A stretch of 62,014 nucleotides of DNA from Thauera sp. 28 (GTDB taxonomy: Bacteria; Pseudomonadota; Gammaproteobacteria; Burkholderiales; Rhodocyclaceae): positions 1-62,014 of the forward strand of contig NZ_AMXA01000023.1 in the NCBI RefSeq assembly GCF_000310145.2. The letters are read 5' to 3'. Below the pieces are notes generated by a model. It ran no database searches, was not told the DNA's origin, and saw nothing but the letters and a program-made list of their open reading frames with translations. Made by a program: the position numbers and the translations under genes. Within the stretch, counting starts at the first letter, position 1, and each line of letters begins with the position of its first letter. Positions 6,368 through 49,610 of this stretch are shown here, piece by piece.

Positions 6368-6426
6368 CAAGGCGCACACGCGCCGACTTCACGCAGGGCC
6401 CGCCAAGACCCGGGCGCTGAGACGCC

Positions 6427-6458
6427 TGTCGCAGCTGTCGCAGGCGCCACGCGACAGC
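6427..6458 (+). promoter_or_regulatory. Candidate activator-binding site (UAS) for the PQQ dehydrogenase operon
   Basis: TGTCGC at 6427 is followed by an inverted repeat, GCTGTCGC (6434-6441), nine bases, GCGACAGC (6451-6458). The same half-sites occur in the divergent control region at 10304-10346. The site lies about 72 bases upstream of a sigma-54 promoter, the usual position for an enhancer-binding protein. Binding by the AcoR-like regulator at 17563 is inferred. Confidence 0.65.
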
Positions 6459-6529
6459 TGTCTCGGCCGCCACCCCCACTCGGGCTGCGCACGGCCAATT
6501 TTTCCACACAAAACAATCACTTCAATTAG

Positions 6530-6545
6530 TGGCACCGTCCTTGCT
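6530..6545 (+). promoter_or_regulatory. Sigma-54 promoter of the PQQ dehydrogenase operon
   Basis: TGGCACCGTCCTTGCT matches the -24/-12 consensus TGGCAC-N5-TTGCW, with GG and GC exactly 12 bases apart. It lies 100 bases upstream of the PQQ dehydrogenase start and downstream of the candidate activator site. Confidence 0.85.
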
Positions 6546-6644
6546 GTCCTTTCTGCGGCAGGCCGGCCTCCGGCTGCTGCACGTCCACTACGCAACGCGC
6601 GCTCAGTCCATGCGCGCCATACGAACCAGAAAGGAGACAAGGAC

Positions 6645-8633
6645 ATGAAACCGTCGACAACCAAGCGCGGCAGGCCGCAGGCCACCCGCAGCGCACTGTG
6701 CGTCACCGCACTGCTCGCGGCGATGAGCACGGCGTTTGCCGCCGACGATGGCAACTGGACCGAGTACACCGGCGACAAGGCCGGCTCGCGCTATCTGCCC
6801 AGCAAGAGCGTCACCACCGAGAGCGTGAAGTCGATGAAGGTCGCGTGGCGCTGGGCCATGCCCGACAACGCGATCGCCGCCGACAACGCCGAGCTGCGCA
6901 CCTGGGTCAACGAGTCCACGCCGCTGGCGATCGACGGCATCCTGTATTCCACCTCGCCGATGAGCACGGTGTCGGCAATCGACGGCGAAACCGGCAAGAC
7001 GCTGTGGTCCTACGACCCCGAGGCCTACAAGGATGGCACCCCGCCCAACCTCGGTTTCATCAACCGTGGTCTGACCTACTGGGCCGACGGCGACGACAAG
7101 CGCATCATCGTCGGCACCGGCGACGGCTACCTGATCGCCCTCAACGCCACGACCGGCAAGCCGATCGAGTCCTGGGGCGAACAAGGGCGTGTCGACCTGA
7201 CCAAAGGCATGCGCCGTCGGGTCGACCGCTCCCTCATCGCGGTCACCTCGCCCCCCATCGTGTGCGGCGACACCGTGGTGCCCAGCATCGCGGTGCTCGA
7301 CTCCTTCGCCATCGGCCGCCAGCCGATGAAGTACCACCCGCCCGGCGACGTGCAGGCCTTCGACGTACGCACCGGAAAGCGCGTGTGGATCTTCGAGCAG
7401 CCGCCGCAGAAGGGGCAGCCAGGCAACGAGACCTGGGAAGACGAGTCGTGGAAGACCACGGGCTCGGGCAACATGTGGGCACGCCCCGGCTGCGACGAAG
7501 AGCTCGGCCTGGTCTACCTGCCGTTCTCGACCCCGACCAACGACTTCTACGGCGGCCACCGCAAGGGCGACGGCCTGTTCGGAGAGTCGCTGGTGGCGGT
7601 CGACGCCAAGTCGGGCAAGCTCGCCTGGTACTACCAGATGGTGCGCCACGGGTTGTGGGACTACGACCTGCCGACCGCCCCCAACCTGATGGATCTCACC
7701 GTCAACGGCAAGAAGATCAAGGCCGTGGCCCAGGTCACCAAGCAGGGCTTCGTGTTCACCTTCGACCGCGCCACCGGCAAGCCCGTGTGGCCGATCGAGG
7801 ACCGCGCAGTACCGCAGTCCACCGTACCCGGGGAACGCTCGGCCGCGACTCAACCGCACCCGACCGTGCCGGCGCCCTTCGTCCAGCAGGGGGTGACCGA
7901 GGACGACCTGATCGACCTCACGCCCCAGCTCAAGGAAGAGGCCAGGAAGATCCTGGCGCGCTACAACTATGGGCCCTTGTACACCCCGCCCACGCTCGAC
8001 AAGGCCGGCACCCTGCAGGTACCGGGCGTACTCGGCGGCGCAAGCTGGGCGGGCGCTGCGCACAATCCGAACACCAACGTGCTGTACGTGCCCTCGTTCA
8101 CGATCCCGTTCGGCATCAAGATCAAGAAGGAGAACGCCAGCGTCTACGACTACACCGGCACCTGGGCCGGGGTCGGCGGCCCGCAGGGCCTGCCGCTGTT
8201 CAAGCCGCCGTTCTCGACCGTGACCGCGATCGACATGAACACCGGCAAGCACCTGTGGCGCATTCCCGCAGGCAAGGGCCCGGTCGACCACCCGGCGATC
8301 AAGGACCTCAACCTCGGCCGTGTCGGCGTCCCGCGCGAGAGCTTCATCGCGCTCACCGACGAGGTGCTGTTCCTCGCCCCGGAAGGGACTCATGGCGTGA
8401 TCGGCCTGTCCTCGCGCGGCAACGCCCTGATCACCCAAGCCAATGCCGACGAGAAGGAGCCCTACCTGTATGCACACGACGCGCGCTCGGGTGAGCTGAT
8501 CTCGGAGCTGCGCCTGCCGGGCGCCGCGTTCGGTGCGCTGATGACCTATCGCGCCGGCGACAAGCAGTACGTCGTCGTGCCGATCGGCGGGGCCGGGCTG
8601 CCCGCCGAGCTGGTCGCAGTCCAGGTCAACTGA
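6645..8633 (+). CDS. Soluble periplasmic PQQ-dependent dehydrogenase
   Basis: This 662-residue quinoprotein has a Sec signal peptide (hydrophobic run ending STAFA-ADD, about residue 35) and repeated propeller blades with the W/DAxTGK pattern (SAIDGETGKTLWSYD, FDVRTGKRVWIF, TFDRATGKPVWPI, AIDMNTGKHLWRI). It belongs with the glucose/quinate-type PQQ dehydrogenases. It has neither the five membrane helices of Gcd nor a fused heme domain (no CXXCH) nor the vicinal CysCys of methanol/ethanol dehydrogenases. It should oxidise an alcohol or polyol in the periplasm and pass electrons to the small cytochrome c encoded next. The start is set by the AAAGGAGA Shine-Dalgarno. The substrate cannot be read from sequence. 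Confidence 0.88.
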   Translation: MKPSTTKRGRPQATRSALCVTALLAAMSTAFAADDGNWTEYTGDKAGSRYLPSKSVTTESVKSMKVAWRWAMPDNAIAADNAELRTWVNESTPLAIDGILYSTSPMSTVSAIDGETGKTLWSYDPEAYKDGTPPNLGFINRGLTYWADGDDKRIIVGTGDGYLIALNATTGKPIESWGEQGRVDLTKGMRRRVDRSLIAVTSPPIVCGDTVVPSIAVLDSFAIGRQPMKYHPPGDVQAFDVRTGKRVWIFEQPPQKGQPGNETWEDESWKTTGSGNMWARPGCDEELGLVYLPFSTPTNDFYGGHRKGDGLFGESLVAVDAKSGKLAWYYQMVRHGLWDYDLPTAPNLMDLTVNGKKIKAVAQVTKQGFVFTFDRATGKPVWPIEDRAVPQSTVPGERSAATQPHPTVPAPFVQQGVTEDDLIDLTPQLKEEARKILARYNYGPLYTPPTLDKAGTLQVPGVLGGASWAGAAHNPNTNVLYVPSFTIPFGIKIKKENASVYDYTGTWAGVGGPQGLPLFKPPFSTVTAIDMNTGKHLWRIPAGKGPVDHPAIKDLNLGRVGVPRESFIALTDEVLFLAPEGTHGVIGLSSRGNALITQANADEKEPYLYAHDARSGELISELRLPGAAFGALMTYRAGDKQYVVVPIGGAGLPAELVAVQVN

Positions 8634-8638
8634 CCGTA

Positions 8639-8679
8639 CGCCTCCGGGGCCGCGGCATTGCCGCGCCGCCCCGGAGGCG
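8639..8679 (+). other. Strong intergenic hairpin without U-tract
   Basis: Directly after the dehydrogenase stop, CGCCTCCGGGGC pairs with GCCCCGGAGGCG (12 bp), enclosing a second stem CGCGGC-ATT-GCCGCG. No T-run follows, so it is more likely a processing or stabilising hairpin that sets the dehydrogenase:cytochrome ratio than a complete terminator. Confidence 0.65.
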
Positions 8680-8731
8680 GTCCTGTCAAGCGGACGCTGC
8701 CGTTCGCATACAGCAACGAGACTCCAAGATC

Positions 8732-9109
8732 ATGAAGACATACCACCTGACCCCCATTGCCCTGGCGCTGATCACCACGTCGGTGCTCGCCTTCAATGCC
8801 GTATTGCCGGAAGCGCCTGCTGCCGAGGAAGTGGTCGTCGAGGCCGCGGGCGGCCCGCCCTTCAAGCTCGATGACAGCGCACGGATCGCCGCCGGCAAGG
8901 CCCGCTACCAGTCCGGCTGCGCCGATTTCTGTCATGGCCACGAGCCCGCCCTGTTCATCGACCGCCAGGGCCTGGACCCCGAGTACGTCTACAACACAAT
9001 CAGGGACGGCGGTCGTGGCGCCACCCCGATGCCGCCCTGGGGCGATGTGTTCTCGCCCGAGGAAATCTGGGAACTGGTGGCCTACCTTAAGTCGCTCGGC
9101 AAGTGGTGA
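8732..9109 (+). CDS. Small c-type cytochrome with CX3CH heme site
   Basis: The 125-residue exported protein has an N-terminal hydrophobic segment (residues 7-22) followed by an Ala/Glu-rich linker and a single class I cytochrome domain. The heme-binding motif reads C63-A-D-F-C67-H68, so three residues, not two, separate the cysteines. A likely distal ligand is Met100 in ATPMPPWG. The C-terminal helix (EEIWELVAYLKSLG) is typical of class I cytochromes. It follows the PQQ dehydrogenase and is the obvious electron acceptor for it. The codon readings around the motif are unambiguous, so the extra residue is not a frame artefact. The N-terminus may be an anchor rather than a cleaved signal. Confidence 0.85.
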   Translation: MKTYHLTPIALALITTSVLAFNAVLPEAPAAEEVVVEAAGGPPFKLDDSARIAAGKARYQSGCADFCHGHEPALFIDRQGLDPEYVYNTIRDGGRGATPMPPWGDVFSPEEIWELVAYLKSLGKW

Positions 9110-9148
9110 GCCCTTGCGCACACCGCCTGCCCTGCGTGTAGGGCACAA

Positions 9149-9187
9149 GAAGAACGCCGCCGGTCGCAGGGCCCGGCGGCGTTCTTC
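9149..9187. terminator. Bidirectional terminator between convergent genes
   Basis: GAAGAACGCCGCCGG (9149-9163) pairs perfectly with CCGGCGGCGTTCTTC (9173-9187) around a nine-base loop. The A-rich left base and T-rich right base suit termination in both directions, for the cytochrome gene and for the convergent outer-membrane gene. Confidence 0.8.
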
Positions 9188-9225
9188 ATTGCAGCGGGTC
9201 ACCGCAGCTGCGGTGACCGCCCGAC

Positions 9226-10113
9226 TCACCAGGCGTAGGCGTACTTGAGGTTGAAGCTGTCGGTCAGGCCGTGCGATTCACCGCTGACACCGCGCGAGTA
9301 GCGCACGGTGATCGACTGGTTGCCGTAGTAGCTGAACATCACACCGATACCGGCGGTCGTCTCGTGGCTGGCGGCCACCTCCGCCCCGGTGGCGCGGTTG
9401 GTCCAGCGCCCCTGGCGCTCGTAGTCGAGCGCGATGAAAGGCTGGACCGCGTCGCTGAGCTTGTATCCCAGCCGGTGGTTGGTATGGAACAGGGTGGCCG
9501 GACGAGCATCTGCAGCCGTCGACTTGCCGAAGAACACGAAACCGGCATCGGCGGTGTAACTGACGCGCTCGAACTGCACGTCCCAGAACAGGCTCGACAG
9601 GTTCTTCCATCCGTCACCGCCGCCAACATCCTGGTTGCCCACCGGCACCTGGAAGAAGGTCTGGAACCCGAGCGTCGAATTCGGCGTCGGCTTGTACCAG
9701 ATCGCCGGACCGGTCAGCGGATCGCCGATGCCGCTTGCGGAGCTGTTGGTCGCGTCATTGCGTACACCGACCTCGGGCAGGATCACCTCGTAGGCCAGGC
9801 CGATATTCGGGTTCGACTCGGGCGACCAGAAGCGCACGTACTTGGACAGGCCGACGATGGTCCTCGTCTTCGCTGCCGCGCGGCGGTCGTCGCCGCTGCC
9901 ATCCCACACCCGCGCACCGTTCTGGAAGGTGGCGTACTGCACGAACACGTTGAACGGCTCGAAGCCGACCGGCAGGTCGTACTCGTGCGGACCGATCACG
10001 TCCAGCGTGACCTGGGCCTGCGCCGTCACGGGTGCAGCAAGCGCTGCACAGACGGTGAGCAGCGGTAGCGCGCACTTGGATGCGCCTTGTCGCGAGCGAT
10101 GGTTCCTGAGCAT
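9226..10113 (-). CDS. Outer-membrane channel of the phenol-degradation MetA-like family
   Basis: The 295-residue protein has a clear signal peptide ending AAPVTAQA-QVTL. The mature part alternates polar and aromatic residues in strand-sized blocks and ends in an aromatic C-terminus (FNLKYAYAW), as in beta-barrel outer-membrane proteins. It resembles the DUF/PF13557 family encoded in aromatic and alcohol degradation clusters, thought to pass hydrophobic substrates. The ATG at 10113 is preceded by AGGAGA. A sigma-54 promoter lies 97 bases upstream on the same strand, so it is probably co-induced with the divergent acoA-like operon and the PQQ dehydrogenase, and brings substrate to the periplasm. 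Confidence 0.8.
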   Translation of the reverse strand: MLRNHRSRQGASKCALPLLTVCAALAAPVTAQAQVTLDVIGPHEYDLPVGFEPFNVFVQYATFQNGARVWDGSGDDRRAAAKTRTIVGLSKYVRFWSPESNPNIGLAYEVILPEVGVRNDATNSSASGIGDPLTGPAIWYKPTPNSTLGFQTFFQVPVGNQDVGGGDGWKNLSSLFWDVQFERVSYTADAGFVFFGKSTAADARPATLFHTNHRLGYKLSDAVQPFIALDYERQGRWTNRATGAEVAASHETTAGIGVMFSYYGNQSITVRYSRGVSGESHGLTDSFNLKYAYAW

Positions 10114-10209
10114 GGGTGTCTCCTTTTCTTCTCGTTCAAATGGATGAAATCGGGGTCGCAGGGCCTGCCCAGGACACCGCCTGGACGCCCCGCCCCGAGC
10201 CCATGCCAT

Positions 10210-10225
10210 TGCACGTTCGGTGCCA
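10210..10225 (-). promoter_or_regulatory. Sigma-54 promoter of the outer-membrane channel gene
   Basis: Read on the minus strand: TGGCACCGAACGTGCA, with correct GG-GC spacing and one deviation (GTGCA for TTGCA). It lies 97 bases upstream of the channel start, with the shared activator sites about 80-120 bases further upstream. Confidence 0.7.
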
Positions 10226-10303
10226 TGCCAGCCACCCCATATTAATCAACACCTTAGCCATCCCGAGCAGTCGCAGCGCAGTCGCATCTGTTGCATCCGG
10301 CGT

Positions 10304-10346
10304 GCGACATGTGTCGCCTCCGCTGCGACAGCCAGCCCCTTGTCGC
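10304..10346. promoter_or_regulatory. Shared activator-binding region between divergent sigma-54 promoters
   Basis: Two inverted repeats of the same half-site occur here: GCGACA-TG-TGTCGC (10304-10317) and GCGACA-N10-TGTCGC (10325-10346). They lie about 80 bases from the left promoter and about 95 from the right one, so one bound activator could serve both. The half-sites match those at 6427-6458. The rest of the 457-base gap between the genes holds no other gene. Confidence 0.7.
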
Positions 10347-10441
10347 GGCCCCTCTGGCGCCCCTGAAAGTCGCTTCGAAAAACAACCAAGCCTCTGTTTC
10401 AAATACGTTTTTATACCTTTCGATGCAACTCGGCACGGTGG

Positions 10442-10457
10442 TGGCACCGAAGTTGCA
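10442..10457 (+). promoter_or_regulatory. Sigma-54 promoter of the acoA-like operon
   Basis: TGGCACCGAAGTTGCA is a full match to the -24/-12 consensus with correct spacing, 114 bases upstream of the E1-alpha start. Confidence 0.87.
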
Positions 10458-10570
10458 AAGCAAGCCCCAGACGCGATGGCAATGCGAAGCGAGCACGGAC
10501 AGCACGACCGCAACCGCTTCCCGACCAGCGCGCGACCAGACGACCCAATCGACGAGGAGGCTTTGCAGCG

Positions 10571-11581
10571 ATGGATGCGACAAGCGAACAACTGCTGTGG
10601 ATGTACGAAAAAATGATCGAGATCCGGGAGTACGAGGAGACCATGGTCAAGGTCTATCTCGAAGGCAAGCTCCCGCCCAAGATCCAGAAGGGCCTGGCCT
10701 TCGACATCGGCGCCGGCCCTGTGCCGGGCGAGATGCACCTTGCCGCCGGCCAGGAACCCGTGGCCGTGGGCGTGTGCGCCCACCTGCGCCGCGACGACAC
10801 CGTGGTCGGGGCACACCGCCCGCACCACTTTGCGATCGCCAAGGACGTCGATCTGAACGCGATGACCGCCGAGATGTTCGGCAAGGTCACCGGCCTGGGT
10901 CGCGGCAAGGGCGGCCACATGCACCTGTTCGACCCCGCGGTGAAGTTCTCCTGCAGCGGCATCGTCGGTGCCGGCGCCCCGCAGGCCTGCGGTGCCGCAC
11001 TGGCGGCGAAGAAGCTCGGCACCGACGCGGTGGCGATCGCCTTCTTCGGCGAGGGCGCAGCCAACCAGGGCGCCTTCCACGAGGCGCTGAACCTGGCCGC
11101 ACTGTGGAAGCTGCCGGTGGTGTTCGTGGTCGAGGACAACAAGTACGGCATCTCGGTGGAGAAGTCCGCCTCCACCGCCATCGCCTCCAATGCCGATCGC
11201 GCCGCCGCCTACGGCATGCCGGGCGTGCTGGTGGAAAGAAACGACGCACTGGCGGTGTTCGAAGCCGCCGGCGCAGCGGTGGCGCGTGCCCGGCGCGGCG
11301 AGGGCCCCACCCTGATCGAGGTCAACACCGACCGCTACTTCGGCCACTTCCAGGGCGACCCGGAGACCTACCGTCCCAAGGACGAAGCGAAGACCCTGCG
11401 CCAGCACGACCCCATCCCCGCGCTCGCCACCCTGCTGCGCCAGCGCGACCTGCTCGACGACGAGGCCGATGCCGCACTGCGCACGCGCATCTCGGCGCGC
11501 GTCCAGGCGGCCTACGACTTCGGCCGCAACAGCCCCTACCCCGCGCCCGAAGACGCGCTGCTGCACGTGTTCGCCGACTGA
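10571..11581 (+). CDS. acoA: Thiamine-dependent dehydrogenase E1 alpha, AcoA-like
   Basis: This 336-residue protein belongs to the E1-alpha family of acetoin/2-oxoacid dehydrogenases. The thiamine diphosphate/Mg motif is GEGAANQGAFHEALN...VVEDNKYG (about residues 160-195), and the substrate-side block PGEMHLAAGQEP is AcoA-like. With the beta subunit encoded next it should cleave an alpha-hydroxyketone or decarboxylate an oxoacid, passing the acyl unit to lipoate. It is first in a tight operon: E1 alpha, E1 beta, lipoyl protein, E2, lipoate ligase. Acetoin is the default substrate by homology, but no acoX or E3 is present, so the true substrate may differ. Confidence 0.85.
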   Translation: MDATSEQLLWMYEKMIEIREYEETMVKVYLEGKLPPKIQKGLAFDIGAGPVPGEMHLAAGQEPVAVGVCAHLRRDDTVVGAHRPHHFAIAKDVDLNAMTAEMFGKVTGLGRGKGGHMHLFDPAVKFSCSGIVGAGAPQACGAALAAKKLGTDAVAIAFFGEGAANQGAFHEALNLAALWKLPVVFVVEDNKYGISVEKSASTAIASNADRAAAYGMPGVLVERNDALAVFEAAGAAVARARRGEGPTLIEVNTDRYFGHFQGDPETYRPKDEAKTLRQHDPIPALATLLRQRDLLDDEADAALRTRISARVQAAYDFGRNSPYPAPEDALLHVFAD

Positions 11582-11597
11582 GAACGAGGAGACCAAG

Positions 11598-12632
11598 ATG
11601 AGCACGACCACCACCACCCGCCGCCTGACCATGGCGCAGGCGATCGCCGAGGCCACTGCGCAGGAGATGGCGCGCGACGACCGCGTCTTCGTCATGGGCG
11701 AGGACGTCGGCAAGTACGGCGGCATCTTCAGCGCCACCACCGGGTTGCTCGACCAGTTCGGCCCCGAGCGCGTGATGGACACGCCGATCTCGGAGACCGG
11801 CTTCATGGGCGCCGCCCTGGGTGCCGCGGCCGAAGGCCTGCGCCCGATCTCGGAGCTGATGTTCGTCGATTTCTTCGGCGTCTGCTTCGACCAGATCTAC
11901 AACCACATCGCCAAGAACCACTACATGTCGGGCGGCGCCTGCAAGTACCCGCTGGTGATCACCACCGGCATCGGCGGCGGCTACAACGACGCCGCCCAGC
12001 ACTCGCAGTGCCTGTACTCGATCTTCGCCCACGTACCCGGCCTGAAGGTCGTCGTGCCGTCAAACGCCTATGACGCCAAGGGCCTGATGACGACCGCGAT
12101 CCGCGACGACAACCCGGTGGTCTTCCTCTATCACAAGGGCATCATGGGCTTGAGCTGGATGTCCTATTTCGAGGGCAGCACCAACGAAGTCCCCGAAGCG
12201 CAATACACCATCCCCTTCGGCCAGGCACGCATCGTCCGCGAGGGCAGCGACGTCACCATCGTGACGCTGTCGCAGATGGTGCAGAAATCGGTGCTGGCTG
12301 CCGATCAGCTCGCCGCCGAAGGCATCTCCGCCGAAGTGCTCGACCTGCGCACCCTGGTGCCGCTGGACCGCGCCGCCGTACTCGCCTCGGTGGCGAAAAC
12401 GGGCCGCCTGCTGGTCGCCGACGAGGACTACCTCAGCTACGGGCTGTCGGGCGAAATCGCCGCGCTGGTGGCGGAGAACCTGGACACCTTGCGCCTCAAG
12501 GCGCCGGTACGCCGCCTGGCCGTACCCGACGTACCCATCCCCTTCAGCCGTCCGCTCGAGCAGTTCGCCATTCCGCAAGTGGACAACATCGTCGCCAGCG
12601 TGCGCGGCCTGATGCGCTTCACGCTCGCTTGA
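11598..12632 (+). CDS. acoB: Thiamine-dependent dehydrogenase E1 beta, AcoB-like
   Basis: The 344-residue product has the two transketolase-like domains of E1 beta: a pyrimidine-binding domain (LTMAQAIAEATAQEMARDDRVFVMGEDVGKYGG, residues 9-41 region) and a C-terminal domain with EVLDLRTLVPLD and LLVADEDYLSYG. It pairs with the upstream alpha subunit as an alpha2beta2 enzyme. The start at 11598 follows an AACGAGGAG Shine-Dalgarno 16 bases after the acoA-like stop; a longer reading frame overlapping acoA is unlikely. Confidence 0.86.
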   Translation: MSTTTTTRRLTMAQAIAEATAQEMARDDRVFVMGEDVGKYGGIFSATTGLLDQFGPERVMDTPISETGFMGAALGAAAEGLRPISELMFVDFFGVCFDQIYNHIAKNHYMSGGACKYPLVITTGIGGGYNDAAQHSQCLYSIFAHVPGLKVVVPSNAYDAKGLMTTAIRDDNPVVFLYHKGIMGLSWMSYFEGSTNEVPEAQYTIPFGQARIVREGSDVTIVTLSQMVQKSVLAADQLAAEGISAEVLDLRTLVPLDRAAVLASVAKTGRLLVADEDYLSYGLSGEIAALVAENLDTLRLKAPVRRLAVPDVPIPFSRPLEQFAIPQVDNIVASVRGLMRFTLA

Positions 12633-12650
12633 TCATTCAGGAGACAAGAC

Positions 12651-12896
12651 ATGACCGACATCATCCTCGACGACGCGGTATGGGCCGACGTCGATGAAGG
12701 CACCGAAGCCCTGCTGCAGGAATGGCAGGTCAAGGAAGGCGACAGCGTGGAGGCCGGCCAGGTGCTTGGCGTGGCTGAGCTGGTCAAGACCAGCCACGAG
12801 ATCTTCGCACCGTCAGCGGGCCGCATTGTCAGGCTCAACGTCGCCGAGCAGGACACCTTCGCCCGCGGCACGGTGCTCGCGCAACTGGAGGCCTGA
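12651..12896 (+). CDS. Stand-alone lipoyl-domain protein (split E2, part 1)
   Basis: The whole 81-residue protein is one lipoyl/biotinyl domain. The modified lysine should be K46 in ELVKTSHEI, flanked by the paired half-domain hairpins (VKEGDSVEAGQVLG and the APSAGRIVRLNV turn). The motif lacks the MKM of biotin carriers and is nearer to lipoyl and GcvH-type sites. It would carry the acyl group between the E1 and the separate E2 catalytic domain. Nothing else is fused: no linker, no subunit-binding domain. It lies 18 bases after the E1 beta stop and 3 bases before the E2 start. Confidence 0.82.
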   Translation: MTDIILDDAVWADVDEGTEALLQEWQVKEGDSVEAGQVLGVAELVKTSHEIFAPSAGRIVRLNVAEQDTFARGTVLAQLEA

Positions 12897-12899
12897 GCC

Positions 12900-13616
12900 A
12901 TGACCACGAGCGTGGCGGCGAGCGCCGCCCCCTCAAGCAGCGCGGTCGCCGAGCGCCGTACGGTCGCGCTCAGCGGCCTGCGCGGCGCGATCGCACGCAA
13001 CATGGCGCAGGGCTGGCAGGCACCACGGGTGGCGCACTCGGTGGACGTCGACCTGAGCCGCGTCGAAACCCTGCGCGCCGAGCGCGCGGCGGCCGGCGAG
13101 AAGCTCAGCCTGAACACCCTGGTGATCCACGCGGTGTCGCGAGCGCTGCGCAGCCATCCGCGGCTGAACGCGCTCATGCGCGAAAAGGAAATCGAGCTCG
13201 TCGACGACATCAACATCGGCATCGCCGTCGCCCTCGACGATGGCCTGATGGTGCCGGTCGTGCGTCAGGCCGACACCAAGCCGCTGGCCGCACTGGCGGC
13301 AGAGGCCCGCCAGCTCGCCGAAGGCGCGCGCACCGGCGCGCTCACGGGCGGGGCCTACCAGCGCGGCACCTTCACCGTGACCAACCTTGGCGGCACCTGC
13401 GTCGACCGCTTCAGCCCGGTCATCAATCCGCCCCAGGTCGCCATCCTCGGCGTCGGCCGCACGCGCCAGCAAGCGGTGGTGAAGGACGGCAGCGTGGTCG
13501 CCGCGGCGGTCGCCAACCTGACCCTGGTGTTCGACCACCGCGCGGTCGATGGCTACCCGGCCGCGCTCTTCCTCGGCGAGGTCGCGCGCCGGCTGGAACA
13601 GGCGGAGTTCGACTGA
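12900..13616 (+). CDS. E2 acyltransferase catalytic domain (split E2, part 2)
   Basis: At 238 residues this is only the catalytic domain of a 2-oxoacid dehydrogenase E2, which normally follows lipoyl and E3-binding domains in one chain. The catalytic signature is DHRAVDG at 212-218, with His213. Other family blocks are RGAIARNMAQGW and GTFTVTNLGG. It should transfer the acyl group from lipoyl-lysine to CoA. No peripheral subunit-binding domain is visible, so recruitment of E1 and E3 must differ from the textbook complex. It follows the lipoyl protein by 3 bases and its TGA overlaps the next ATG by one base. Confidence 0.85.
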   Translation: MTTSVAASAAPSSSAVAERRTVALSGLRGAIARNMAQGWQAPRVAHSVDVDLSRVETLRAERAAAGEKLSLNTLVIHAVSRALRSHPRLNALMREKEIELVDDINIGIAVALDDGLMVPVVRQADTKPLAALAAEARQLAEGARTGALTGGAYQRGTFTVTNLGGTCVDRFSPVINPPQVAILGVGRTRQQAVVKDGSVVAAAVANLTLVFDHRAVDGYPAALFLGEVARRLEQAEFD

Positions 13617-14386
13617 TGCCCGTCGCCGCCCTCGCCTCCTCCAGCACCCGCCGCCGGCCGGGCGCGGCCGGCACTGCCCTGACCCTGGTACGCGCCACGG
13701 CCGAGCAGGACTGGAACACCCGCCAGCTCGCCACGCCGGTGACGGCGCCACGGGTGCGCGTGTGGGCCTACCCGGCACCCGGCGTGGTGTTCGGCTGCGC
13801 TCAGGCGGCGCTGCATGGCGAAGCGCTGCGGGCGGCGCGTACCCAGTGTGAGCTGGTGCAGCGCCGTGCCGGCGGCGGCGCCGTACTCACCGGTCCGTGG
13901 ATGCTGTCATCGTCGATCGTGCTGCCACCGCAGCACCGCCTGCTGGCCGGCGGCACCGTCACCAGCTATCGCTGGCTCGGCATCCTCCACGCCGGCCTGC
14001 TGCGCGACTTCGGCATCGCGGCGCATGCGCTGGCGCCGGACGAGCTCGCCCGTCGTCCGTCCGACCCCGCCCTGGCCTGGGCCTGCTTCGGCGGGCTGTC
14101 GCCCTGGGAGGTGATCGCCGGCGGCCGCAAGCTTGTCGGCCTGGCCCAGCTGCGCCGCCAGCAGGGCGTGCTGCTCACCACGGGCACGCTGCTGCAGCGT
14201 CCGGACTGGTCGCTGCTGTGTCGTGCACTCGGGCGCCCCGACGACGATGTCGCCCGCCTCGATGCCGCCACCACCTCATGCGCAGACCAGCTCGGCACCT
14301 CGATCCACATCGAAACCCTGGCCGACAGCCTGCAGCAGATGCTGACCGACGTGCTCGGCGATTGCGAGCCGGAGAACGGCAGCTGA
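13616..14386 (+). CDS. Lipoate-protein ligase A family protein
   Basis: The 256-residue product is a member of the lipoate/biotin ligase fold. RRAGGGAV at 83-90 is the characteristic RRxxGGG block, and GGRKLVGLAQ (about residues 170-179) contains the lysine that contacts lipoyl-AMP. TTGTLL follows as in LplA. It is translationally coupled to the E2 gene (TGATG overlap), which suggests dedicated lipoylation of the small lipoyl protein in the same operon. An octanoyl- or lipoyl-transferase role is the alternative, since several LplA relatives are transferases. It lacks the separate C-terminal accessory domain of E. coli LplA. Confidence 0.78.
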   Translation: MPVAALASSSTRRRPGAAGTALTLVRATAEQDWNTRQLATPVTAPRVRVWAYPAPGVVFGCAQAALHGEALRAARTQCELVQRRAGGGAVLTGPWMLSSSIVLPPQHRLLAGGTVTSYRWLGILHAGLLRDFGIAAHALAPDELARRPSDPALAWACFGGLSPWEVIAGGRKLVGLAQLRRQQGVLLTTGTLLQRPDWSLLCRALGRPDDDVARLDAATTSCADQLGTSIHIETLADSLQQMLTDVLGDCEPENGS

Positions 14387-14453
14387 CACACCCGCAGCCC
14401 CCGATTCCGCAGAGAACCGGCCGCAAGGCCTCGATAACAGCAAGGAGACAACC

Positions 14454-15035
14454 ATGAGCAACACAACATCACGCCCACCGATGCGCGTCGTCGAAAAGCG
14501 CATCACCTTCTCCCGTCGCGGCTTCCTCAAGGGTGGCGGCATGGCCGCCCTCGGCGTCGGGGCGCTGAGCACCGCCACGCTGATGCTGCCGGCCAGCGAG
14601 GCGCTGGCCGCCAACTTCAAGGTCCTCGGCGCCAGCACCGGCAAGACCCTGCTGCAGCTGGCGCGCGACATCTTCCCCCACGACCGCATCTCGGACCGCT
14701 ACTACCTGCAGGCGCTCGAGCCCCTGGAGGCGCAGGCCGGGCAGGACGAAAAGCTCAAGACCCTGCTGACCGAGGGCGTGGCCGCACTCGACCGGCTGGC
14801 GAAGCTGCGCTTCAAGAAGGCCTACACCGACCTGCCCAAGGAAAGCGACCGCCTGACGCTGCTCTACGTCATCGAGCACGGCGCCTTCTTCCAGAAGGTG
14901 AAGGGCCACCTGGTCACCGGCTTCTACGACAACAAGGCGGTGTGGCAGCTGTTCGGCTACGAAGGCTCGTCCTGGGAAAAGGGCGGCTACATCAACCGTG
15001 GCTTCGACGACATCGACTGGCTGGACGAAGCCTGA
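14454..15035 (+). CDS. Tat-exported small subunit of a GMC dehydrogenase (gluconate 2-dehydrogenase subunit 3 type)
   Basis: This 193-residue protein starts with a twin-arginine signal (SRRGFLKGG at about 21-29, then a hydrophobic stretch ending ASEALA-ANF). The mature part resembles the gluconate 2-dehydrogenase subunit 3 family, which accompanies a signal-less GMC flavoprotein and carries it across the membrane by hitch-hiking. That flavoprotein is encoded 41 bases downstream. The gene sits 67 bases after the lipoate ligase stop with no promoter that I can recognise between them, so it may belong to the same transcript. An AAGGAGA site supports the start. Confidence 0.82.
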   Translation: MSNTTSRPPMRVVEKRITFSRRGFLKGGGMAALGVGALSTATLMLPASEALAANFKVLGASTGKTLLQLARDIFPHDRISDRYYLQALEPLEAQAGQDEKLKTLLTEGVAALDRLAKLRFKKAYTDLPKESDRLTLLYVIEHGAFFQKVKGHLVTGFYDNKAVWQLFGYEGSSWEKGGYINRGFDDIDWLDEA

Positions 15036-15076
15036 CCCGCCGACCCTGACACACAACAACACCAAGGAGACACATC

Positions 15077-16651
15077 ATGAGCGCGAAATTCTCGCTGGAC
15101 GACGACAGCGTGGTGGTCATCGTCGGCTCGGGCGCTGGCGGCGGCACACTGGCCGACGAACTGACCAAACGCGGGGTGAATGTCGTCATCCTCGAAGCGG
15201 GCAAGCACTACACCCAGAACGACTTCGAGAACGACGAGTGGGCGATGTTCCACAAGATCTCGTGGCTGGACAAGCGCATTTCGGCCGGCGGCTGGCATCA
15301 CACCGACACCTATCCCAACCTGCCGGCCTGGATCGTCAAGGGCGTGGGCGGCTCGACCATGCACTTCTCGGGGCTGGCGCTGCGCTTCCTGCCGCACGAT
15401 TTCCGCATCAAGAGCACCTATGGCACGGTCGATGGCGCCAACGTGCTCGACTGGCCGATCAGCTACGAGGAGCTCGCGCCCTACTACGATATCGCCGAAC
15501 GCAAGATGGGCGTGGCCGGCACCAAGGCCAGCGGTCTGCCCGAGATGCCGCCGAACAACCACTACAAGGTGATCGCGGCTGGCGCGAAGAAGGTCGGCTA
15601 CAAGGACATCAGCCGGCCGGTCGCCTCCAACACCCGAGCCAACGACGGCCGCCCGGCCTGTCAGCAGATCGGCTTCTGCATGCAGGGCTGCAAGATCGGC
15701 GCCAAGTGGTCGACGCTGTACTCGGAAATCCCGCGCGCCATCGAAACCGGCCATGCCGAGCTGCGCCCGCAGAGCATGGTGCTCAGGATCGAGCACGACA
15801 AGAGCGGCAAGGCCAGCGGCGTGCTCTACGCCGACAAGGACGGCCGCCAGCACCTGCAGAAGGCGCGCGTGGTGTGCGTGGCCGGCAACTCGATCGAATC
15901 GCCGCGGCTGCTGCTGAACTCCGCCTCCAGCCTGTTCCCGAACGGGCTGGCAAACTCCTCGGGCCAGGTCGGCAAGAACTACATGAACCACACCACGGCG
16001 GCCGCGATCGCGATCCACAAGGGGCCGGTGTACATGTACCGCGGCTTCGACATCGCCGCGGTGATCTCTGACGAGGCCCAGCTCAACCCCGACCGCGGCT
16101 TCCTCGGCGGCTACCACCTCGAGGGCCTGGCGCTGCACCTGCCCTTCACCGCCGCGTTCATGAAGCCGGGCGGCTGGGGACGCGAGGTCACCTCGGCGCT
16201 GGAGCAGTACGACCACATGAGCTGCGTGTGGGTGTGCGGCGAGGACATGCCGCAGGAAGAGAACAGCATCACCCTGCACCCGACCGAGAAGGACCAGTAC
16301 GGCCTGCCCATCCCGATCGTGACCAAGACCGACCACACCAACGACGCCGCGATGCGCCGCCACGGCCTGGCCGCGTGGCGCAAGGTGTCGGAGGCGGTGG
16401 GGGCGACCCGCGTCATCGACATGCCGCCCTATCCGGCGAGCCACAACATGGGCACCAACCGCATGAGCGCCAACGCCCGCGACGGCGTGGTGAACAAGTG
16501 GGGCCAGACCCACGACATCAAGAACCTGTTCATCTCCGACGGCAGCCAGTTCACCTCCAGCTCGGCGGCCAACCCGACCCTGACCATCGTCGCGCTGGCG
16601 GTGCGCCAGGCCGAACACATCGCCAACGCCATGCAGCGCCGCGAACTCTGA
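15077..16651 (+). CDS. GMC-family FAD-dependent dehydrogenase
   Basis: The 524-residue protein has the FAD-binding start VVIVGSGAGGGTLADEL and the GMC C-terminal active-site region, with His456 in ASHNMGTNRM and Asn499 in SSSAANPTLTI. It has no signal of its own; export is probably with the Tat subunit encoded upstream. Cys195, Cys201 and Cys205 (spacing CX5CX3C) match the cysteines that hold a 3Fe-4S cluster in the bacterial FAD glucose dehydrogenases, which suggests direct electron output. The usual multiheme cytochrome subunit is not encoded here. It probably oxidises an alcohol or sugar-like hydroxyl in the periplasm, either the same substrate as the PQQ enzyme or its product. Confidence 0.88.
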   Translation: MSAKFSLDDDSVVVIVGSGAGGGTLADELTKRGVNVVILEAGKHYTQNDFENDEWAMFHKISWLDKRISAGGWHHTDTYPNLPAWIVKGVGGSTMHFSGLALRFLPHDFRIKSTYGTVDGANVLDWPISYEELAPYYDIAERKMGVAGTKASGLPEMPPNNHYKVIAAGAKKVGYKDISRPVASNTRANDGRPACQQIGFCMQGCKIGAKWSTLYSEIPRAIETGHAELRPQSMVLRIEHDKSGKASGVLYADKDGRQHLQKARVVCVAGNSIESPRLLLNSASSLFPNGLANSSGQVGKNYMNHTTAAAIAIHKGPVYMYRGFDIAAVISDEAQLNPDRGFLGGYHLEGLALHLPFTAAFMKPGGWGREVTSALEQYDHMSCVWVCGEDMPQEENSITLHPTEKDQYGLPIPIVTKTDHTNDAAMRRHGLAAWRKVSEAVGATRVIDMPPYPASHNMGTNRMSANARDGVVNKWGQTHDIKNLFISDGSQFTSSSAANPTLTIVALAVRQAEHIANAMQRREL

Positions 16652-16718
16652 GCCTCAGCGTGCAGCCTCGGGCACACCGCCGGGGCCACATCCTCAACCA
16701 CAAGAAACGGAGACATCC

Positions 16719-17333
16719 ATGAGCCAGACAAACAGCTTTCGCCGCATCCTGTCGGCGGCCATGATCAGCGCCGGCCTGGCCGCCGCCAGCCTGCCCGCGC
16801 AGGCCGAACCGATCCCGGGCATGCGCGGCATGCAGCACATCGGCATCACGGTGCCGAACATGAACGAGGCCGTCGCCTTCTTCCGCGACATCCTCGGCTG
16901 CGAACCCTCATTCACCTTCGGCACCTTCAAGTTCGACGACGACTGGATGGCGCGCCATCTCGACGTGCATCCGCGCGCCACGATCAGCGACTTCCAGATG
17001 GTCCGCTGCGGCAACGGCACCAACCTCGAGGTCTTCGAGTACACCGCCCCCGACCAGAACCGTCGCGGCCCCCGCAACAGCGACATCGGCGGCCACCACC
17101 TCGCCTTCTACGTCGATGACATGGATGCGGCCGTCAGCTACCTCAAGGCCAAGGGCGTGCGCGTGCTCGACTCGCCGAGCACCTTCACCGAAGGCCCTGC
17201 GGCCGGGCTAACCTGGGTCTATTTCCTCGCGCCCTGGGGGCTGCAGCTCGAACTCGTGAGTGCCCCGAACGGCATGGCCCACGAGAAGACACTGCAGCGC
17301 AAGCTCTGGGACCCGCGCTTCCCCGCCAGCTGA
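16719..17333 (+). CDS. Exported VOC-superfamily (glyoxalase-like) protein
   Basis: The 204-residue protein has a Sec signal peptide (ILSAAMISAGLAAASLPAQA-EP) followed by a vicinal-oxygen-chelate fold with paired beta-alpha-beta-beta-beta modules. Candidate metal ligands are the His in MQHIGITV, the His pair in GGHHLAFYV and the Glu in LQLELVS. VOC proteins include glyoxalase I, dioxygenases and epimerases, which are usually cytosolic, so export is notable. It could isomerise or bind the product of the periplasmic dehydrogenases. It is last in the plus-strand run and is followed by a terminator. Confidence 0.8.
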   Translation: MSQTNSFRRILSAAMISAGLAAASLPAQAEPIPGMRGMQHIGITVPNMNEAVAFFRDILGCEPSFTFGTFKFDDDWMARHLDVHPRATISDFQMVRCGNGTNLEVFEYTAPDQNRRGPRNSDIGGHHLAFYVDDMDAAVSYLKAKGVRVLDSPSTFTEGPAAGLTWVYFLAPWGLQLELVSAPNGMAHEKTLQRKLWDPRFPAS

Positions 17334-17421
17334 CTCCCGCCCCAGCCCGCATGCTCCCGGGGCGCCCATGCGCCGCGGGCTCGGCGGTTTCCCATGCCTG
17401 ACTCCCTCCTCCAGGCGTTTT

Positions 17422-17456
17422 GCGGGGCGTGCCGTCAAGGCCGCCCCGCCCTTTTC
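17422..17456 (+). terminator. Intrinsic terminator after the VOC gene
   Basis: GCGGGGCG (17422-17429) pairs with CGCCCCGC (17442-17449) and is followed by CCTTTTCT. It separates the catabolic transcript from the regulator gene. Confidence 0.72.
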
Positions 17457-17562
17457 TGTTGAGCCGCAGGGAAGGGCGGAGTAACTTGTACCGTCACACA
17501 CAGAGACCGAACCATGGTCCGCACCGGGCACCCGCATGACACTGCCCGGAAGAGGAGACGAG

Positions 17563-19491
17563 ATGCTGGCCCAATCACAACGGGAGCACATTGATCACGT
17601 GCTCGCCGTATCACAGACCGGAGCGCCCCCGTCCGACCGCATCGGGAGTTCGTGGGTACGCTGCATCCGCGACTACGGGCTCGACCCCTGTCGCCCGACG
17701 CGCGCCCATATCATCGAGCATGCGCGCCTGCGCGAACACCAGGACCATATCGAAGAGTTCCTCGGTGTCGCCCGCACCGGCATGGAGCAGCTCTACAAGC
17801 GCATGGCCGGCATCGGCTACGTGCTGCTGCTGACCGACGCCCACGGCATCGCGGTGGACTTCATCGGCAACGACGCCTGGGCGCGCGAACTCAAGCAGTC
17901 CGGCCTCTACCTTGGCGCCGACTGGAGCGAGGCGCGCGCCGGCACCTGTGCAGTGGGAACCTGCATCGTCGAGAAAACGCCGATCACGGTCCATCACGCC
18001 GACCACTTCGACGCCACCCACATCTCGCTGACCTGCAACGCCGCCCCCTTGTTCGACCCCACCGGGGATTTCCTCGGCGTGCTCGACGTCTCCGCACTGA
18101 CCTCGCCTTCGCCCCGCGACAGCCAGCACCTGGCGCTGCAGATGACCACCATGTTCGCGCAGATGGTCGAGGACGCCAACTTCCTGCGCTACTTCCGCGA
18201 CCGCTGGGTGCTGCGCCTGGGCTCGGCATGGTCGATGGTGGATGTATCGGGCGAGATCATGCTCGCCTTCGATGCCGACGGCGTCATCGTCGGCACCAAC
18301 AGCGGCGCCCGCAAGTCGCTGCGCCCCTTGCGCGGCGGCAATGACGGCGCGCTGGTCGGCCGCACGCTCGGCGAGATCTTCCGCGAGGGCATGGACTCGA
18401 TCTGGCGCATTGCCCGGGCCGGCTTCACCGCGGACCGCACCGCGCTGTCGACGGGCAGCGGCGAGGTCTACTACGGCACCGTCGTACAGCCCCGCATCGC
18501 CCCGCGTGCGGCACGGTCGACCGAAACCGAAGCGGCTGCGCGCGCGCCGGCGCTCGAACGCCTGGCGGGCGACGATCCGCAGATGCAGCGCCTGATCGCG
18601 CAAGCCTCCAGGCTGGTCAACCGCCCGGTCAACATCCTGGTCCACGGCGAAACCGGCACGGGCAAGGAGGTCCTCGCCAAGGCGCTGCACGAGTCCAGCG
18701 AACGCGCTGCAAAGCCCTTCGTGGCGGTCAATTGCGCGGCCATTCCCGAGTCGCTGATCGAGAGCGAATTGTTCGGCTATACCGCCGGCACCTTCACCGG
18801 TGGGCGCAGCAAGGGCATGCGCGGCCTCATCCAGCAGGCCGACGGCGGCACCCTCCTGCTCGACGAGATCGGCGACATGCCGCTGCACTTGCAGACCCGA
18901 CTGCTGCGGGTCCTGGCCGAGCGCGAGATACTGCCGCTCGGCGCCGAAAAGCCGATACCCGTCAACCTGACCGTGGTCGCCGCCTCGCACCGCGACCTGC
19001 GCAAACTGATCGCCGAGGGCAGCTTCCGCGAAGATCTCTACTACCGCCTGTGCGGGGCCATCCTGTACCTCCCGCCGCTGCGCGAACGCCGCGACCTCGA
19101 CTACCTGATCGAGCGCCTGCTGGCGGCCGAGGGCAGCGAACTCGGCACCAACGCCACCCTCGACTTACGCGCTCGCCATGCCTTGCTCGACTACAGCTGG
19201 CCCGGCAACGTGCGCCAGTTGCGCAACGTGCTGCGCTTCGCGCTGGCGGTCTGCGATGGCGGAACGATCACCACCGATGACCTGCCCGCCGAGCTCATGT
19301 CCGCCGACCACCGCGCCCCCGCAGCAACCGAGGGCCCGGAGGCAACACGCGGCGAGGCGGCCGAACTCGAGGCCGCGCTGCGCCGCCAGCGCTGGAACGT
19401 CACTGCCGCCGCAGTAGAGCTCGGCATTGCGCGCGCCACCGTGTATCGGCAGATGAAGCGCTTCGGCATCGTGCCGCCGAACCAGCTGTGA
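17563..19491 (+). CDS. AcoR-like sigma-54-dependent transcriptional activator
   Basis: This 642-residue enhancer-binding protein has an N-terminal sensory part with a GAF-like region (about 60-200, EARAGTCAVGTCIVEKTPI...HISLTCNAAPLFD, as in AcoR). A central AAA+ domain follows (Walker A GETGTGKE at about 362, Walker B GGTLLLDEIGD), and then a Fis-type helix-turn-helix (NVTAAAVELGIARATVYRQMK). The sigma-54 contact loop reads GTFTGG (409-414) in place of GAFTGA. Three sigma-54 promoters with shared upstream inverted repeats lie in the island it borders, so it is the likely inducer-responsive activator. I chose the ATG at 17563, with AGGAG seven bases upstream, over the in-frame ATG at 17536. 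Confidence 0.87.
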   Translation: MLAQSQREHIDHVLAVSQTGAPPSDRIGSSWVRCIRDYGLDPCRPTRAHIIEHARLREHQDHIEEFLGVARTGMEQLYKRMAGIGYVLLLTDAHGIAVDFIGNDAWARELKQSGLYLGADWSEARAGTCAVGTCIVEKTPITVHHADHFDATHISLTCNAAPLFDPTGDFLGVLDVSALTSPSPRDSQHLALQMTTMFAQMVEDANFLRYFRDRWVLRLGSAWSMVDVSGEIMLAFDADGVIVGTNSGARKSLRPLRGGNDGALVGRTLGEIFREGMDSIWRIARAGFTADRTALSTGSGEVYYGTVVQPRIAPRAARSTETEAAARAPALERLAGDDPQMQRLIAQASRLVNRPVNILVHGETGTGKEVLAKALHESSERAAKPFVAVNCAAIPESLIESELFGYTAGTFTGGRSKGMRGLIQQADGGTLLLDEIGDMPLHLQTRLLRVLAEREILPLGAEKPIPVNLTVVAASHRDLRKLIAEGSFREDLYYRLCGAILYLPPLRERRDLDYLIERLLAAEGSELGTNATLDLRARHALLDYSWPGNVRQLRNVLRFALAVCDGGTITTDDLPAELMSADHRAPAATEGPEATRGEAAELEAALRRQRWNVTAAAVELGIARATVYRQMKRFGIVPPNQL

Positions 19492-21822: not shown

Positions 21823-21880
21823 AATGTTGCACCGCAATGTCTTCGTATCGTGGTTCATCGTCGGCATCGAGGAGTGTTCC

Positions 21881-25508
<3,628 letters not shown>

Positions 25509-25516
<8 letters not shown>

Positions 25517-32083: not shown

Positions 32084-32109
32084 GATTATGTAGATGCCTC
32101 GATTATGTT
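32084..32109. repeat. Left terminal inverted repeat, RIT copy 1
   Basis: This 26-bp sequence is the exact reverse complement of 35239-35264. It contains two GATTATGT motifs 17 bases apart. Confidence 0.9.
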
Positions 32110-32179
32110 GAGCCAGCATGGGCGTCGTGCGCCAACCGCCCGGCTGGGGCTGCAGGCGCCGTTTTTGATCTCCACATAA

Positions 32180-35113: not shown

Positions 35114-35238
35114 GAGCGTCTCCTGGAGTGGAAACTCCACTTCAGGAGAGCGCTGGAATTATGTCGAGCTCAGACTCCTACCCCGGCAAGCAAAAGCTCG
35201 AGCACACTGGGATCTACGGCCTGCTATCCCGGACGCTT

Positions 35239-35264
35239 AACATAATCGAGGCATCTACATAATC
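35239..35264. repeat. Right terminal inverted repeat, RIT copy 1
   Basis: This is the perfect reverse complement of the left end. It abuts the 28-bp palindrome directly. Confidence 0.9.
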
Positions 35265-35292
35265 GGCCTTATGTGGAGCTCCACATAAGGCC
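35265..35292. repeat. 28-bp perfect palindrome right of RIT copy 1
   Basis: GGCCTTATGTGGAG followed by its exact reverse complement. Each half contains TTATGTGGAG, the motif also found in the element ends (best match at 32167-32181). The same palindrome lies immediately left of copy 2 at 49487-49514. It has no loop or T-run, so a terminator role is unlikely; recombination-site debris is the better reading. Confidence 0.85.
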
Positions 35293-49514: not shown

Positions 49515-49540
49515 GATTATGTAGATGCCTCGATTATGTT
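49515..49540. repeat. Left terminal inverted repeat, RIT copy 2
   Basis: Same 26 bases as 32084-32109; reverse complement at 52670-52695. Confidence 0.9.
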
Positions 49541-49610
49541 GAGCCAGCATGGGCGTCGTGCGCCAACCGCCCGGCTGGGGCTGCAGGCGCCGTTTTTGAT
49601 CTCCACATAA

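Follow-up and report, generated by a model that had tools for sequence, protein, structure and literature searches.

A sigma-54-linked gene island of Thauera sp. 28 and its relatives: a candidate for the catabolism of short vicinal diols or hydroxyketones

We analysed a stretch of 62,014 nucleotides (nt) of Thauera sp. 28 (the window, which is one entire contig, NZ_AMXA01000023.1, of a 4.31-Mb genome) and, within it, an island of twelve genes at 6645-19491 that could be assigned to families by Pfam and NCBIfam profile searches. With moderate confidence, we propose that this is a catabolic island under the control of sigma-54 and an AcoR-like activator, and that its substrate would be a short vicinal diol or hydroxyketone. 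Its core consists of the two subunits of a thiamine-diphosphate dehydrogenase (E1alpha and E1beta), a lipoyl protein, an acyltransferase (E2), a lipoate-protein ligase, a small subunit with a twin-arginine translocation (Tat) signal, a GMC flavoenzyme and the activator. This core is found as a block in further Betaproteobacteria, and in a version with gaps in other Proteobacteria. The initial annotation of the window had inferred there two successive periplasmic oxidations followed by a cytosolic cleavage. Our results retain much of its gene content and change its account of the oxidations and of the E1 enzyme.

A conserved core around a distinct dehydrogenase complex

The genes from E1alpha to the activator form a single run on the plus strand. 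E1alpha (10571-11581; PF00676, 259 bits) and E1beta (11598-12632; PF02779/PF02780) are followed by a stand-alone lipoyl protein of 81 amino acids (aa) with ELVKTSHEI around its lysine (12651-12896; PF00364), a stand-alone E2 catalytic domain lacking a lipoyl domain (12900-13616; PF00198, 229 bits; DHRAVDG) and a single-domain lipoate-protein ligase (13616-14386; PF21948). Then come a GmcB-like small subunit with the Tat signal SRRGFLK (14454-15035; TIGR01409 above its cut-off, PF13618 just below, 23.1 bits for a cut-off of 23.4), a GmcA-like, fructose-dehydrogenase-type GMC large subunit without a signal of its own (15077-16651; PF05199/PF00732), a glyoxalase-fold protein of the VOC family whose N terminus, by eye, resembles a signal peptide (16719-17333; PF13669/PF00903), and the AcoR-like sigma-54 activator, with a sensor region, an AAA+ domain and a Fis-type helix-turn-helix (17536-19491; PF00158, PF25601, PF02954). 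To the left lie a dehydrogenase of 662 aa dependent on pyrroloquinoline quinone (PQQ) that matches PF01011 over its full length (6645-8633, plus strand; 596 bits) and a small cytochrome c (8732-9109, plus strand; PF13442) with the haem motif CxxxCH (CADFCH), both with signal-peptide-like N termini. Between the two groups, an outer-membrane protein of the Phenol_MetA_deg type (9226 to about 10113, minus strand; PF13557, 83.9 bits; start picked by eye in a frame open to 10209) is divergent from the E1 operon. The families named in the initial annotation are thus the right ones, with two corrections: the opposite strand rules out the outer-membrane channel as a member of the same operon, and the "Tat-exported GMC pair" is indeed a pair, of which the small subunit alone carries the Tat signal.

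Scanning genome contigs for the ligase yielded 60 loci (labelled L in this analysis, as genomes are labelled G), 40 of which have the E1alpha, E1beta and lipoyl genes and were counted. The E2, small-subunit and GMC genes are all together in 35 of these 40, an AcoR-like gene is present in 33, and PQQ, cytochrome and VOC genes in 16, 15 and 15, respectively. The hosts include Parazoarcus, Aromatoleum, Denitromonas, Massilia, Rugamonas, Cupriavidus, Bordetella, Comamonas, Hydrogenophaga and Limnohabitans. Of the named organisms in the scan, Parazoarcus communis is the closest (88%), and its locus (L018) has all twelve genes. Of the loci dropped, a fragment of 3.4 kb (L039) has the E2, ligase, small-subunit and GMC genes, and 19 have a more distant ligase (44-53% identity) and no E1 set, some of them on short contigs. 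In three of these 19 (L049, L050, L053), an AcoR-like gene is found about 1.5 kb from the ligase.

Since the loci were chosen by their ligase, these counts of the core are biased, and searches started from E1alpha and from the GMC gene are less so. Ten of 150 relatives, the own genome included, have E1alpha at 72% identity or more, with a clear gap to the next matches (at most 48%). The GMC clade (at least 75%) is present in eight relatives, all among these ten; in G023 and G063 it is on another contig, in G063 across a contig end. The ligase is found in 11, i.e., the same ten and G099. Some genomes are in both the relatives and the ligase scan (G016 and L020; G076 and L022). Of 398 Proteobacteria sampled, five other than the own genome have an E1alpha at 59-66%, here too set off from the next matches (48%), and two of the five (G520 and G523) have the GMC pair adjoining it. 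On a plasmid of Phaeobacter inhibens the order is E1alpha, E1beta, lipoyl, E2, a "hypothetical protein" in the position of the ligase, small subunit, GMC, VOC and HupE, with a distant activator on the opposite strand. The claim that the part from E1 through GMC to AcoR is one unit is therefore borne out by conserved linkage across loci. We found no description of this gene combination in the literature searched, a coverage outside which subscription papers mostly lie.

The E1 enzyme belongs to a family of its own. In a midpoint-rooted tree of 84 E1alpha rows, drawn from 121 loci with a match (overlapping copies, the partial L024, L031 and others were omitted, and the tree carries a long-branch warning), 51 family rows form one clade with support 100/100, and nine rows linked to acoC lie elsewhere. 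The family is 41-48% identical to AcoA-type E1s. The displayed family rows and the nine aco-linked rows have the loop GHFxGD in common; of the other displayed rows, GHFEGD is seen in some and GHSKSD or AHSMFD in others, and human pyruvate dehydrogenase (PDH) has GHSMSD. At other motifs the family departs from the aco rows (HRPHHF versus THRGHGH, GHMHLF versus GSMHIA, GEGxxNQG versus GDG, EDN versus ENN), and unlike them it has an insert ahead of PGEMH. Likewise, a family-specific insert of nine residues in E1beta is present in 9 of 9 family rows, in 0 of 9 aco rows and in 0 of 5 other rows compared. E1alpha stays below the PDH-type cut-offs (TIGR03182, 292 versus 393.85; TIGR03181, 217 versus 411), and E1beta passes the PDH-type subfamily model NF006667 (355 versus 321). 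As for the AcoC-type E2 (NF011457, cut-off 307), the lipoyl protein reaches 29.7 bits, and the own genome (G000) has no AcoC above the cut-off. All twelve genes of the island have assignments other than AcoX, in profile searches that included no model for it. The "AcoAB-like" E1 of the initial annotation is corrected here: E1alpha is not AcoA, and the separate clade together with the type of E2 rules out a plain acoABC operon.

Several features suggest that this complex is active and has its own supply of cofactors. The E2 motif DHRxxDG is kept in 36 of 36 rows, the lysine at the lipoyl position in all 39 displayed rows of 41, and K172 of the ligase in 32 rows. The structure model of the ligase (predicted local distance difference test score, pLDDT, 90) matches lipoate-protein ligase A with bound lipoyl-AMP (2art; E 2.9e-12, template modelling score 0.64, 17% identity), and PF21948 is its sole Pfam match, so that it corresponds to the catalytic fold and lysine of LplA without the accessory domain. 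In six Massilia and Rugamonas loci (L032-L034, L036-L038) a gene of the lipoyl-synthase family lies between the GMC and AcoR genes (the L032 copy is above the curated cut-off), and on pR1CP1 of Rhodococcus opacus (L079) lipA directly follows E2. In L162, genes for ThiS, ThiG and dihydrolipoyl dehydrogenase (E3), above cut-off, stand between E1alpha and a set of porin, PQQ and cytochrome genes. The kept residues and these neighbours point to a working thiamine- and lipoate-dependent complex with a dedicated cofactor supply. The interior of a catabolic cluster is an unusual location for lipA.

The complex has points in common with several known systems. It shares with the acetoin dehydrogenase system (AcoABC/AcoR) a thiamine E1 of alpha and beta subunits, a lipoyl carrier, acyl transfer to coenzyme A (CoA) and an AcoR-type sigma-54 activator, but its E1 is of the separate clade, its E2 is split into the small lipoyl protein and a catalytic protein in place of an AcoC-type E2, and the island adds a dedicated ligase, the Tat GMC pair and the exported VOC protein. 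The fold families of E1, lipoyl domain and E2 are also those of the pyruvate and branched-chain 2-oxoacid dehydrogenase complexes, from which the island differs by its split E2, the absence of an E3 among its genes and its E1 motifs. LbpA of Hdr-like sulfur oxidation is likewise a lipoyl protein that stands alone and has a dedicated one-domain ligase next to it (PMC6067878; here and below, citations refer to the portions of the papers available to us). The island has no hdr-like gene among those identified, and its carrier is found together with E1 and E2 and presumably passes on an acyl group.

These features bear directly on the best placed of the rival explanations, that of a divergent 2,3-butanediol/acetoin pathway in which the PQQ enzyme makes acetoin, a diverged acetoin dehydrogenase cleaves it to acetyl-CoA and acetaldehyde, and the GMC enzyme takes other stereoisomers. 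The AcoR-like regulator and the GHFxGD loop shared with aco-linked E1s speak for it, as does the precedent of Pseudomonas putida, where PQQ alcohol oxidation also stands upstream: PedE and PedH convert (2S,3S)-2,3-butanediol to acetoin, which acetoin dehydrogenase then cleaves (PMC8427195). So does the neighbourhood of the R. opacus version, which lacks the GMC gene and lies near the gene of an oxygenase for tetramethylpyrazine, a C4 vicinal substrate; a reductase of the pathway for this compound also accepts diacetyl and acetoin (PMC4647570). Among the 150 relatives, AcoC above cut-off occurs in nine genomes and this E1 in ten, with no overlap, where chance would give only about 0.6. On the other side stand the separate E1 clade, the inserts specific to the family in both E1 subunits, the lack of an AcoC-type E2, the dedicated ligase, and the precedent for the GMC family, which is acetol and not acetoin (see below). 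We consider this explanation somewhat unlikely.

Promoter sites, palindrome and the PQQ genes

Sigma-54-type promoters, sought as TGGCAC-N5-TTGCW, precede both halves of the island. An exact site, TGGCACCGTCCTTGCT (6530-6545, plus strand), is 99 nt ahead of the PQQ gene, and an exact site is at the same distance before the PQQ gene of P. communis (L018). A second exact site, TGGCACCGAAGTTGCA (10442-10457, plus strand), is 113 nt ahead of E1alpha, and a site with one mismatch (10210-10225, minus strand) precedes the outer-membrane protein gene. The window has five matches with at most one mismatch, versus 2.1 expected, a count that is weak alone because 7 of 100 shuffles also reach five. None of the five is upstream of the small-subunit, GMC, VOC or regulator genes, so that the "shared promoter type" of the initial annotation holds for three promoters and does not extend to these genes. 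The comparison across loci is more telling: with at most one mismatch, the site is upstream of E1alpha in 27 of 40 loci versus 2 of 341 genes outside the named families, and with at most two mismatches in 34 of 40 versus 37 of 341. For PQQ genes the first figure is 3 of 17.

A palindrome, GCGACA-NN-TGTCGC, which resembles an activator site and is farther upstream than the sigma-54 site, has a similar distribution. It was first read from the window and then tested on the other loci, which are related sequences. The copy at 10304-10317, GCGACATGTGTCGC, is the sole exact one in the 4.3-Mb genome, and two copies with two and one mismatches lie upstream of the PQQ gene (6419-6464, plus strand), as do copies with zero and one mismatches in P. 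communis. With at most one mismatch it is found upstream of E1alpha in 31 of 40 loci (versus 3 of 334 genes outside the named families), of three families of outer-membrane proteins (5/5, 6/6 and 5/9) and of 2 of 17 PQQ genes, those of the window and P. communis. Total counts are near chance (8 versus 8.7 expected in the window at two mismatches or fewer; 28 versus 22 for a control in the genome at one or fewer), and we therefore give weight only to the position upstream of E1, porin and PQQ genes and to the single exact copy. Six loci lack a sigma-54 site upstream of E1alpha even at two mismatches, and also lack the palindrome. In one of them (L024) E1alpha is in two pieces and its start was miscalled. 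The other five (L044, L061, L067, L070, L074) are those without E2, GMC and AcoR genes, and make a natural negative control. Two further loci, L163 and L164, likewise have E1alpha of the same clade, E1beta, lipoyl and ligase genes, with no E2, GMC or AcoR in range. The island thus has both the AcoR-type sigma-54 activator and the sigma-54 promoter that mark acetoin systems, and we predict that the AcoR-like protein binds the palindrome and regulates the island.

Do the PQQ genes belong to this regulon? The PQQ enzyme is nearest to the NCBIfam model of the glucose/quinate type (TIGR03074), below its cut-off (383 versus 832 bits), and pqqC is present in the genome. The cytochrome has the unusual haem motif CxxxCH in common with 9 of 16 rows, the other seven having the usual CxxCH. 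Found in 16 of the 40 loci, and of several types, the PQQ enzyme is ruled out as a part of the conserved core, and the two successive periplasmic oxidations of the initial annotation are not borne out. A sequential oxidation is not established by an enzyme that is not conserved, and the PQQ and GMC oxidases may instead work in parallel. The absence of PQQ genes from 24 of 40 loci and their differing types are what favours another explanation, namely that two unrelated functions are adjacent, with PQQ enzyme and cytochrome serving general alcohol oxidation and the half from E1 to GMC alone forming the pathway. We find this quite unlikely, given the exact sigma-54 site and the palindrome that also stand upstream of the PQQ gene in the window and in L018, and the 13 loci in which a porin gene, of families that mostly carry the sigma-54 site, precedes the PQQ and cytochrome genes on the same strand. 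These shared sites and porin-linked genes suggest that the PQQ half belongs to the E1 regulon, even if the PQQ enzyme varies. The common control of the left and right halves, as claimed initially, is to this extent supported, and the sites of the window and P. communis would argue against separate induction.

Possible substrates and course of the pathway

The GMC pair gives a hint of the substrate. The closest match of the large subunit in PDB is the fructose dehydrogenase large subunit (E 8e-58), and the adjoining small subunit with its Tat signal gives the arrangement of a GmcAB pair. In a midpoint-rooted tree (L208, L214 and further matches were omitted), the clade of the window (39 rows) and a sister clade linked to monooxygenase and glyoxalase genes (12 rows) separate with support 100/100. 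We inspected 14 contexts of the sister GMC gene (L177-L183, L208-L214; proteins of L177 were searched against Pfam and NCBIfam, the rest judged by similarity or by eye). In three of them (L177, L179, L209), diiron monooxygenase genes and GroEL precede it at a short distance, and in L177 and L179 the gene of an AcoR-like regulator stands between the monooxygenase and the GMC gene. A glyoxalase-type VOC gene is beside it in seven (L177, L179, L180, L181, L182, L212, L214). This recalls two systems of C3 metabolism. In Methylocella silvestris, the GMC gene Msil_1641 has a locus number close to those of the propane monooxygenase genes (Msil_1649-1651). Its deletion makes acetol build up, slows growth on propane and abolishes growth on 2-propanol and acetone, and from this mutant the authors ascribe acetol oxidation to Msil_1641 (PMC7364539). 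In Methylacidiphilum, GmcA and GmcB, proposed to be Tat exported, and a glyoxalase I are strongly induced on 2-propanol and acetone, and GmcAB was assigned the conversion of acetol to methylglyoxal (PMC8630023, PMC12235487). The island shares with these systems the Tat small subunit, the GMC large subunit and the glyoxalase-fold neighbour, and differs from them in its GMC clade, in the linkage to E1 and E2 instead of a monooxygenase, and in a seemingly exported VOC protein without a match to the GloA models. By this analogy, the GMC pair resembles acetol-oxidising enzymes, which fits a hydroxyketone. The GMC kin, the VOC neighbours, the tetramethylpyrazine context and the P. putida precedent have as common denominator a C3 or C4 vicinal hydroxyketone or dicarbonyl.

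In the VOC protein, the residues H40, E104, H127 and E178, which we take to be likely metal-ligand positions, are invariant in 13 rows, and its weak structure model (pLDDT 72.8) indicates a glyoxalase/VOC fold only. A gene of the HupE/UreJ type (a nickel/cobalt permease family) is beside the VOC gene in L022, L024, L025, L027, L029, L032-L034, L036-L038, L042 and L078, an assignment for which the L037 copy alone was searched against Pfam. The VOC protein may need a metal.

The favoured pathway for a short diol or hydroxyketone would run from the periplasm to the cytosol. The substrate would cross the outer membrane by the divergent channel, and the PQQ dehydrogenase with its cytochrome c would oxidise the diol to a hydroxyketone, which the Tat-exported GMC pair could oxidise to a dicarbonyl. 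Cytochrome c or quinone would take up the electrons of both oxidases, and the exported glyoxalase-fold protein might handle or detoxify the reactive carbonyl. In thiamine chemistry, such a ketone is split to a two-carbon unit plus an aldehyde or acid. The cytosolic E1 would attack the ketone carbon and break the C-C bond, the two-carbon unit would pass to the lipoyl protein, itself lipoylated by the ligase of the island, and the separate E2 would transfer it to CoA. We infer a cleavage to acetyl-CoA and a one- or two-carbon fragment: an aldehyde if a hydroxyketone is cleaved, or an acid such as formate or acetate if a dicarbonyl is. The likeliest substrates would be the C3 series 1,2-propanediol/acetol/methylglyoxal or the C4 series 2,3-butanediol/acetoin/diacetyl. 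A bolder version, unlikely in our view, is that this is a further lipoate-dependent complex, which cleaves a periplasmically made alpha-dicarbonyl of the methylglyoxal type to acetyl-CoA and formate and so bypasses lactate and pyruvate on the way from acetol or 1,2-propanediol. Five lipoate-dependent multienzyme complexes were listed as characterised in 2018 (PMC6067878).

The substrate could also be larger, i.e., a terpenoid, aromatic or steroid side-chain hydroxyketone from which E1 would give a longer acyl-CoA. In Sphingomonas paeninsulae the E1 set is indeed found amid genes for a ring oxygenase, maiA and a FAD protein, and E1 departs from AcoA at the conserved motifs HRPHHF and GHMHLF. 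The recurring flanking families that were scanned, in flanks annotated in part, are nevertheless not ring oxygenases, and the monooxygenase genes in 3 of the 14 contexts of the sister GMC are of a short-chain type, which makes this option improbable. It is very improbable that the complex is a true 2-oxoacid dehydrogenase whose oxoacid substrate is made in the periplasm, after the logic of gluconate 2-dehydrogenase: the resemblance of the small subunit to gluconate 2-dehydrogenase subunit 3 (the match just under cut-off), the NF006667 match of E1beta and the glucose/quinate model nearest to the PQQ enzyme are offset by the score of E1alpha far under the PDH equivalog cut-off (292 versus 394), its GHF where human PDH has GHS, and the GMC kin by arrangement, which act on acetol.

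Several observations also count against our proposal of a short diol or hydroxyketone. We know of no enzyme of this E1alpha clade that has been assayed. The core is incomplete in the five E1-bearing loci of 40 that have E1, lipoyl and ligase genes and no E2, GMC or AcoR, and of the five genomes from the Proteobacteria sample, the three other than G520 and G523 (G455, where the contig ends early, G504 and G473) have no GMC pair in the fetched stretch. No PQQ gene is in range in 24 of 40 loci, the PQQ genes elsewhere are of several types, orthologues of the window enzyme lie beside E1 genes only in P. communis, and G106 has a PQQ enzyme at 70% identity and no island. (That enzyme, in L176, is within an array of PQQ dehydrogenases and, by eye, sorbosone-dehydrogenase-like genes.) The palindrome also occurs upstream of 4 of 16 VOC and 3 of 31 AcoR genes. 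The GMC enzyme of the window is 55-61% identical to the sister clade and separate from it, so that its substrate may differ, and Msil_1641 is equated with the sister clade by gene arrangement only. Seven of the 14 sister contexts have no VOC gene in their lists of open reading frames, and contexts other than those named have neither monooxygenase nor VOC genes there. Finally, the role of acetol in the cited papers rests on a mutant and on induction, not on a purified enzyme, and cells of Methylacidiphilum SolV did not respire 1,2-propanediol (PMC8630023, PMC12235487).

Surroundings and significance of the island

The rest of the contig has features of independent interest. Just downstream of the island, 21824-25516 encodes a protein of 1230 aa of the pyruvate/indolepyruvate:ferredoxin-oxidoreductase type. 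An exact duplicate of 3186 bp (32084-35269 and 49515-52700) has inverted repeats at its ends and encodes, on the minus strand, three tyrosine recombinases (Phage_integrase) in a row; we take it to be a RIT-type (recombinase in trio) element in two copies, the first of which sits between an outer-membrane efflux gene and an AcrB-type gene. At 57270-61318 are a LutB-type lactate utilisation gene and an L-lactate permease gene; the detoxification of methylglyoxal would give lactate.

If our proposal is right, it would give a testable function to a thiamine/lipoate clade of Alpha-, Beta- and probably Gammaproteobacteria, which is also found on plasmids of Phaeobacter, Paracoccus, Sphingomonas and Rhodococcus. 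The island would tie periplasmic oxidation by quinoproteins and flavoproteins to a cytosolic cleavage that forms acyl-CoA, under one regulator. It would also extend to catabolism the pairing of a lipoyl carrier and a dedicated ligase, so far described for sulfur oxidation, and it would offer a short route from chemicals of the propanediol or butanediol type to acetyl-CoA.

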